DNA from: Mesotoga prima MesG1.Ag.4.2
GTDB taxonomy: Bacteria; Thermotogota; Thermotogae; Petrotogales; Kosmotogaceae
Assembly (NCBI RefSeq): GCF_000147715.2
Contig: NC_017934.1
Location: 2,170,001-2,234,000, forward strand
Length of the DNA stretch: 64,000 nt
Direction: 5' to 3'
Part shown: piece after piece, positions 6,637 to 8,080 of the stretch
Layout: every line of letters starts with the position of its first letter
How positions within the stretch are numbered: the stretch's first letter is position 1
The notes under the pieces: model-generated
What the model was told of the DNA's origin: nothing
The model's input: only the letters and a program-made list of their open reading frames with translations
The model's database searches: none
Program-made: the position numbers and the translations under genes

Positions 6637-7427
6637 GCTGACTCAACCTCCTGATATTCGGCCTCTTCGATACTCATTCCAGTGAATTCGAGAAAGACAT
6701 CTTCAAAGCTTGGATTGTCAACTTTACCGAGCAACTGCTTCTTCAGTTCTGACGGTCGTCCAGAAGCAACGATTCTTCCTAAGTGAATTATCGCAACGTA
6801 ATCACAGAGTTTCTCCGCTTCATCCATGTCATGCGTTGTCAAGAGCATGGTTGTATTCATGGTGTTCTTCACATCGCTAATAAGACTCTGAACATCCCTC
6901 TTTGCCCTTGGATCAAGTCCCGTGGTCGGCTCGTCCAAGAGTAGCATTTTGGGTTCAGTCATGAAGGCCCTAACAATGGCTACCTTCTGTTGCATACCTC
7001 TGGAAAAGTCTTCTAGCGGATCTTTCAATCTCTTGAGATCCAGTCCGAATCTCTCGGCGAGACCGTTTATCTTTTTGAGAGCCTCACGCCGTGGAATTCC
7101 ATATAGTCCTGCTGAAAAACAGAGATTCTCCACTGCGGAAAGCTTCCTGAAGAAACTTGCCTCGACTGAAACTCTGTTTATCATTCTTTGAACCGATGCA
7201 GAATTACTAACGGAATCGTACCCGAAAATGGATATGCTTCCTCTATCTGGAATCAAGAGTGTTGAGGCAATTCTGATAAAGGTTGATTTTCCCGAACCGT
7301 TTGGACCTAGAAGACCGAAAATCTCTCCTTCCTTTATTCTCAAATTTATCCCTTTTAGTGCTTTGATTTCCTTTCTACTCTTCTTAAATGCTTTCACTAT
7401 ATTGTTGGCAAGCAAAGCGTCTGCCAT
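6633..7427 (-). CDS. ABC transporter ATP-binding protein (ABC-2 exporter, DrrA/CcmA type)
   Basis: The 264-aa nucleotide-binding subunit has Walker A GPNGSGKST (about residue 40), a non-canonical signature FSRGMQQK in place of LSGGQ, Walker B MLLLDEPTTGLD and the H-loop TTHDMDEAEKL. The short C-terminal extension is typical of DrrA-like exporters. It would hydrolyse ATP to drive the permease encoded next. It sits 12 bases downstream of the third micro-ORF, within the attenuator-controlled transcript that starts near 8046. The ATG has an AGGAAGG-type Shine-Dalgarno, which overlaps the end of the micro-ORF. Confidence 0.92.
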   Translation of the reverse strand: MADALLANNIVKAFKKSRKEIKALKGINLRIKEGEIFGLLGPNGSGKSTFIRIASTLLIPDRGSISIFGYDSVSNSASVQRMINRVSVEASFFRKLSAVENLCFSAGLYGIPRREALKKINGLAERFGLDLKRLKDPLEDFSRGMQQKVAIVRAFMTEPKMLLLDEPTTGLDPRAKRDVQSLISDVKNTMNTTMLLTTHDMDEAEKLCDYVAIIHLGRIVASGRPSELKKQLLGKVDNPSFEDVFLEFTGMSIEEAEYQEVESA

Positions 7428-7846: not shown

Positions 7847-7882
7847 AAAAAAAAAAGACCGCGGCTGTTGCAAGCCACGGTC
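7847..7882 (-). terminator. Conditional terminator (attenuator) upstream of the micro-ORF/ABC exporter operon
   Basis: On the minus strand GACCGTGGC and GCCGCGGTC form a 9-bp stem (one G-U pair) around an 8-base loop, followed by ten Ts. It lies between the leader ORF and micro-ORF 1. Its 5' arm is also complementary to an upstream leader segment: the leader 5'-GCCACGCCTTC (complement of 7932-7942) pairs with 5'-GAAGGACCGTGGC (complement of 7874-7886) over 11 bp with a 2-base bulge. That pairing excludes the terminator, which is the design of a transcription attenuator. Confidence 0.8.
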
Positions 7883-7901
7883 CTTCATAATCCAATTGTC
7901 G

Positions 7902-8009
7902 TTATACGATCTTATACCTCACACGACGGAAGAAGGCGTGGCACAGTACGGCATCCCCGGATACCCGGTTAAGGGAAACGGTTGCCGGAACGTAAGCTCT
8001 CATGGTCAT
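7902..8009 (-). CDS. Putative 35-aa leader peptide of the ABC exporter attenuator
   Basis: ATG at 8009 follows AAGGAGG at 9 bases, close to the predicted transcription start (about 8046). The ORF has 35 codons (MTMRAYVPATVSLNRVS... ending VRYKIV) and stops 20 bases before the terminator stem. The antiterminator segment lies inside codons 23-26. A ribosome crossing it would favour the terminator. One halted earlier would leave it free to pair with the terminator arm and allow read-through. This arrangement is known from leader peptides of antibiotic-inducible ABC transporters (for example bmrB of Bacillus). The inducer here is unknown. Confidence 0.6.
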   Translation of the reverse strand: MTMRAYVPATVSLNRVSGDAVLCHAFFRRVRYKIV

Positions 8010-8052
8010 CAAACTGTGCCTCCTTCGTAGTAAATGTACCTGTTGCTAAGGA

Positions 8053-8080
8053 ATTATAGCATAATGGGGGAGAAATTCAA
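8053..8080 (-). promoter_or_regulatory. Promoter of the leader/micro-ORF/ABC exporter operon
   Basis: On the minus strand the -35 TTGAAT (8080-8075) and -10 TATAAT (8058-8053) are separated by 16 bases. Predicted start is near 8046, leaving about 37 bases before the leader ORF. Confidence 0.75.

Follow-up and report, generated by a model that had tools for sequence, protein, structure and literature searches.

The minus strand at 8080-7847 of the window (the 64,000-nt stretch of Mesotoga prima MesG1.Ag.4.2 DNA analyzed here) carries, in this order, a sigma-70-like promoter, a Shine-Dalgarno (SD) sequence, a 35-codon ORF and a terminator with ten Ts, and this locus is very likely a ribosome-mediated transcription attenuator of the leader-peptide type. 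A slowed or drug-blocked ribosome on the leader would probably switch on the exporter genes downstream by averting early termination. The initial annotation had proposed a leader-peptide terminator/antiterminator switch composed of these elements: every one of them is present, and the proposal is supported by comparison of homologous loci. It had missed a helix covering the SD, three small ORFs, an N-terminal Arg-X-Arg/Lys motif in the leaders of relatives and the phylum-wide spread of the arrangement. The leader region contains the following features.

8080-8053, minus strand: promoter TTGAAT-16 nt-TATAAT, TG before the -10 box (10 of 12 matches)
8026-8013, minus strand: segment 1, GAAGGAGGCACAGT, containing the leader SD and pairing with segment 2 in the predicted off state, with the SD hidden (minimum-energy fold, pair counts)
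8025-8019, minus strand: SD sequence AAGGAGG
8009-7902, minus strand: leader ORF MTMRAYVPATVSLNRVSGDAVLCHAFFRRVRYKIV, 35 codons, ATG at 8009, stop at 7904-7902
7947-7932, minus strand: segment 2, ACTGTGCCACGCCTTC, within the ORF, common to the 1:2 and 2:3 helices
7942-7932, minus strand: antiterminator part of segment 2, GCCACGCCTTC
7918-7902, minus strand: GGTAT-N6-GTATAR element spanning the leader stop codon, kept in 12 of 13 Kosmotogaceae loci (alignments)
7886-7874, minus strand: segment 3, GAAGGACCGTGGC, terminator 5' arm and partner of segment 2
7886-7847, minus strand: intrinsic terminator, 3:4 hairpin (7886-7853) plus ten Ts (7856-7847)

Competing helices at the leader

The promoter was the joint best match in a scan of 8 kb, and the TATAA of its -10 box showed no change across 8 Mesotoga-type loci. 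The terminator has a G+C-rich core of 9 bp, or 14 pairs counting the flanking ones. Such a strong terminator might simply end the upstream gene or give a fixed partial readthrough to the exporter; this reading is extremely unlikely, since it leaves the ORF and the conserved 1:2 and 2:3 helices without explanation and since the upstream gene is separated from the terminator by a conserved promoter. The upstream neighbor (10120-8270, minus strand) encodes a CehA/McbA family metallohydrolase (NF038032), and other Kosmotogaceae genera have a similar gene ahead of the leader. In this family, the synonymous positions (TAT, GTA) of the GGUAU-N6-GUAUAR element near the leader stop are kept as well.

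Two regions compete for pairing with segment 2: that of the SD (segment 1) and the terminator 5' arm (segment 3). The 11-bp antiterminator with a two-base bulge, described previously, was found between 7942-7932 and 7886-7874 as 6 + 5 bp on either side of the 2-nt bulge (GCCACGCCTTC with GAAGGACCGTGGC), and its leader part falls within the ORF 8009-7902, as had been stated. Antiterminator and terminator share segment 3 and therefore exclude each other, an arrangement kept in 21 loci, the partner lying inside or beside the ORF. The third helix, between the SD region at 8026-8013 and 7947-7932, is part of the minimum-energy fold and competes as an anti-antiterminator (1:2) for segment 2 of the antiterminator. 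As expected for an attenuator, a translatable short ORF with an SD lies 5' of the intrinsic terminator, both being located before the target genes.

The fold in the window had a z-score of -2.6, with 2 of 200 shuffles equally good. The window antiterminator taken alone does not exceed chance, as 46 among 300 dinucleotide-shuffled leaders paired equally well with the terminator arm, and it becomes compelling only because it is kept at the same place in 21 loci: in 19 of these only 0-18 of 300 shuffles matched its strength (0 of 300 were equally good in 8 loci), and in all 21 the best partner of the terminator 5' side was in, or overlapped, the ORF segment that covers the SD.

One of the Kosmotogaceae loci (L078) was misaligned by MAFFT, so the helices were compared using hand-set registers. 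With these, the 2:3 helix was paired in 141 of 143 cells (13 Kosmotogaceae loci) and 4 of its 11 pairs showed changes on both sides, chiefly via L078 and L017/L024; L078 has UCGC with GCGA where the others have CCUU with AAGG. The 2:3 helix hardly varies within the genus, and its compensatory changes therefore stem from a few other genera. The 1:2 pairing was present in 95 and 94% of the cells of its two helices, with 2 pairs doubly changed (genus), and the 3:4 terminator was paired in 125 of 126 cells (14 loci). Sliding the register by 1-3 columns lowered the pairing from 97 to 36-58%. Compensatory changes, for which the initial annotation had recommended an alignment of related genomes, were found in both the 2:3 and the 1:2 helices. 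The formal covariation support for 1:2 plus 3:4 is modest: 10 of 500 shuffles reached the score, and 121 of 500 had at least as many double-change pairs.

Leader and exporter across the Thermotogota

The locus set was obtained from the clear permease orthologs of 25 genomes (identity of 54-97% in those beyond the window) by taking the regions upstream of them; 23 loci were assessable and two others end at contig ends. Of the 23 assessable Thermotogota loci, 21, from 6 families, show the same layout ahead of the orthologous DrrAB-like exporter: a short ORF with an SD, a helix over this SD and, farther downstream, a terminator. Thirteen of them belong to the Kosmotogaceae (L001-L008, L017, L024, L025, L027, L078) and the remaining eight (L079-L082, L084, L085, L087, L088) to other families. 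Homologs without the ORF or the helices had been named earlier as evidence against the switch, and the switch reading survived this check: both are kept in the 21 loci. The leader is not universal, being absent upstream of the orthologous exporter at the other two, L083 and L086, the L086 exporter closely following another gene. In the genus, the element was present in 8 of 10 genomes, the other two also being without the exporter. A leader profile search found it in other Kosmotogaceae genera, ahead of the orthologous exporter, and a contig scan with this profile returned three near relatives only. Segments 1-3 differ strongly between families (for example, GCCTTGCATATACCCC with GGGGTTGTGCAAGGC and TCCACGGCC with GGCCGTGGA), and the same pairing scheme is held even by loci of unrelated sequence. 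A literature search on Thermotogae, Mesotoga and Kosmotogaceae, with subscription papers mostly outside its coverage, found no description of attenuation or leader peptides, in line with the earlier statement that such a switch is undescribed for this gene set.

The SD, start, open frame and stop position of the leader ORF are kept in the 21 loci, and its stop falls between segments 2 and 3 in 10 of 10 lineages tested (product of shuffle probabilities about 10^-8.8). A riboswitch or a protein-bound antiterminator acting independently of translation, with an incidental ORF, would agree with the stable fold and with the conserved GGUAU-N6-GUAUAR near the stop codon. It is nevertheless very unlikely, given that these ORF properties are kept in unrelated sequences, that the families share the switch arms only and no aptamer-like core, and that no Rfam family matched in the gathering and E-value modes.

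The leader peptide belongs to no Pfam or NCBIfam family and has a dN/dS of about 0.5-0.7 in most pairs, i.e. a weak protein constraint. L078 reads the conserved RNA segment 2 in another frame, so that there the RNA is kept and not the peptide; together with the weak dN/dS, this frame change fits a leader whose translation, not its product, would matter. The opposite reading, that the 35-aa peptide has a function of its own, for instance as a product exported by the ABC system, could be based on its constant length in the genus and on the further small ORFs in the operon, but it is hardly credible with a dN/dS far from the value of about 0.1 in small ORF 4 and with a conserved segment that changes frame in L078. 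A conserved arrest peptide was also considered and rejected, as the peptides diverge outside the RNA segments.

The exporter operon had been thought to start right after the terminator. This had to be corrected: three SD-preceded small ORFs intervene and the ATPase gene starts at 7427.

7826-7728, minus strand: small ORF 2, 32 aa, SD-preceded, poorly conserved
7674-7564, minus strand: small ORF 3, 36 aa, SD-preceded, PPFI core kept in the genus
7544-7440, minus strand: small ORF 4, MKNKIRGSKSVFIDGLVDKQKIEIESRFSRPHYL, 34 aa, SD-preceded, ending in RFSRPHYL/KFSRPHYL
7427-6633, minus strand: ABC exporter ATPase, DrrA-like (PF00005; nearest NCBIfam TIGR01188 drrA, below cut-off)
6636-5806, minus strand: ABC-2 type permease, DrrB-like (PF01061 above cut-off)

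Small ORF 4 is under strong purifying selection, with a dN/dS of about 0.1 in those pairs for which it was computable, and probably encodes a real small protein. It is confined to the 8 exporter-carrying genomes of the genus and has no Pfam or NCBIfam family; different small ORFs are located at its place in other Kosmotogaceae. The drrA and drrB models gave 247 bits (cut-off 312) and 38.5 bits (cut-off 223), respectively, both below the curated cut-offs, and since PF00005 and PF01061 were matched while these cut-offs were missed, the exporter is termed only DrrAB-like. No relative of the permease was found by sequence among solved structures. In two genomes the permease gene is broken by stops or frame changes, possibly assembly errors (G003 C17:220-938 and G010 C132:712-1532); in G003 the leader is intact although the permease is broken.

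Ribosome position and a candidate inducer

For the proposed switch we infer leader translation, stalling, termination, readthrough, the inducer and the exporter substrate. Transcription would begin near 8053, from the promoter described above. On a leader free of ribosomes, 1:2 would form, hiding the leader SD, and the 3:4 terminator would follow; a freely moving ribosome would cover or pass segment 2, again leaving 3:4 to form, and in either case most transcripts would stop at about 7847. A ribosome held at approximately the first 5-8 codons would cover or block segment 1, allowing 2:3 to pair, so that the terminator comes too late and RNA polymerase goes on to transcribe the small ORFs and the DrrAB-like exporter genes. 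Inhibition of translation by a ribosome-targeting compound would be the likely signal.

The claim of the initial annotation that the ribosome position decides the outcome is supported, at the level of prediction, by footprint-constrained folding of six lineages, in which a footprint of -15 to +15 around the P-site codon was assumed in a simplified model ignoring steric effects of a ribosome inside the loop. With the ribosome at codons 1-3, 2:3 formed before segment 4 was made in 6 of 6 lineages, and at codon 5 in 5 of 6, being partial in the window sequence, where much 1:2 pairing remains with the ribosome at codon 5 or later unless sterically hindered. From about codon 20 onward segment 2 was covered and the terminator was left, and at codon 24 none of the six lineages formed 2:3. 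In almost every case 3:4 wins over 2:3 in the complete RNA, being the more stable once segment 4 exists, and the choice would therefore have to be kinetic. The C-terminal RVRYK of the leader, which contains an Arg/Lys-X-Arg/Lys (+X+) motif, was rejected as the inducing stall site because a ribosome there is at or past segment 2 and because other genera have GYQ, RYS or RYI in place of RYK.

At the other end of the peptide, codons 4-6 encode Arg-X-Arg/Lys in 7 of 10 Kosmotogaceae representatives (RTR, RFR, RFR, RLK, RNR, RSR, RFR) against 1 of 192 control ORFs, in a comparison that was devised after inspection of the peptides and includes related, i.e. not independent, sequences. The X is variable and the charges are kept via differing codons (AGA, CGG, AAA). 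Arg/Lys-X-Arg/Lys is the principal arrest motif for ketolides and a frequent one for macrolides, the arrest being established (PMC8298421), and it is found near the N-terminus in the mef(E)/mel and erm(K) leaders (PMC4335068). A macrolide- or ketolide-type inducer, to which the motif in most Kosmotogaceae leaders points, is thus a tentative candidate with somewhat less than even chances. The window leader has lost the motif (R-A-Y at codons 4-6); since erythromycin can arrest ErmDL without an intact motif (PMC8298421), the window copy may still respond.

The RNA logic would be identical if the ribosome were stalled by scarcity of one charged tRNA, as in an amino-acid attenuator, and a very likely example of this type exists in the phylum (L122, six Asn codons before asparagine synthetase A). 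For the exporter leader this is highly improbable: it is without a run of one codon, the N-terminal residues vary freely except R4 and R/K6, and the target is an exporter and not a biosynthetic gene.

Related leaders and known attenuators

A covariance model of the leader was used to find further leaders. In four genomes of the genus a second leader type, MLDIIQAHRRAILGG..., with the 1:2/2:3/3:4 layout of the exporter leader, is located directly before an MFS transporter gene (PF07690; L116, L117, L121 and L128 in G007, G006, G002 and G005, respectively). In another family of the order (L115:1052-1249, G033), the leader MIRLLKLRYYIL..., with K-L-R at codons 6-8, and terminators precede a pair of MsbA/BmrCD-type ABC exporter genes (PF00664, PF00005). 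In L118 and L123 (G002 and G007), the leader MIRRIRNLADVD..., whose codons 4-6 encode R-I-R, is accompanied by a long terminator, with a membrane protein and an ORF resembling an amidohydrolase downstream; no clear 2:3 pairing was found at these two loci. At L122:378-600 (G053 C118), the leader MFSYVLNIVELNNNNNNPIDIGRLG with its six Asn codons is followed by a terminator and then by asparagine synthetase A (NF005054, above cut-off); this is very likely a textbook-like Asn attenuator and suggests that bacteria of this phylum use the translation of leaders to control transcription attenuation. The matches at L119, L120 and L124-L127 resemble chance or plain terminators and were rejected.

Most of what has been established about leader-peptide attenuation of drug transporters comes from Gram-positive bacteria. 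The unrelated leader sequences, the hiding of their own SD and the many +X+ motifs before DrrAB-like, MFS and MsbA/BmrCD-type targets might reflect phylum-wide, probably old drug-sensing attenuators, a possibility that we regard as less likely than not. If true, it would imply a regular exposure of these anaerobic/thermophilic bacteria to macrolide-like ribosome inhibitors. The conservation before a chromosomal exporter across the Thermotogota suggests that such sensing is old and widespread beyond clinical settings, and the switch would give the exporter a likely role in removing ribosome-targeting compounds.

Among known systems, mef(E)/mel (msr(D)) with the leader MTASMRLR is similar in its promoter, short ORF after AGGAGG, alternative pairing, Rho-independent terminator, efflux operon and +X+ near the N-terminus, but has an 8-codon leader in a 327-nt region on Gram-positive mobile elements (PMC4335068); the Thermotogota leaders have 23-35 codons, the antiterminator segment inside the ORF, a chromosomal location and a DrrAB-like target. 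The erm(K)/erm(D) system, with the leader MTHSMRLRFPTLNQ, shares the Arg-X-Arg arrest near the N-terminus and, for erm(K), the control by transcription attenuation (PMC4335068, PMC8298421), while its target is an rRNA methylase and no sequence similarity was seen. The uORFC-6-1 motif upstream of hflX is also a uORF RNA found by comparison, with a conserved Arg-Leu-Arg and presumed control by antibiotic stalling, but it belongs to Bacillales and has another gene and fold (PMC8632094). The analogy with bmrB-bmrCD of Bacillus subtilis, drawn already in the initial annotation, holds for the same three alternative structures (terminator, antiterminator and anti-antiterminator), the small ORF and the ABC exporter; there, ribosome-targeting drugs induce and bmrB translation is required (PMC4191407). 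In bmrB the three structures lie in nt 60-162 of the coding region (PMC4191407), whereas here the terminator is located after the stop codon, the leader SD is masked by the anti-antiterminator and the exporter is of another type. The three-structure attenuation logic was already known; the differences are these positions of the off-state helix and the terminator, the DrrAB-like target and the Thermotogota hosts.
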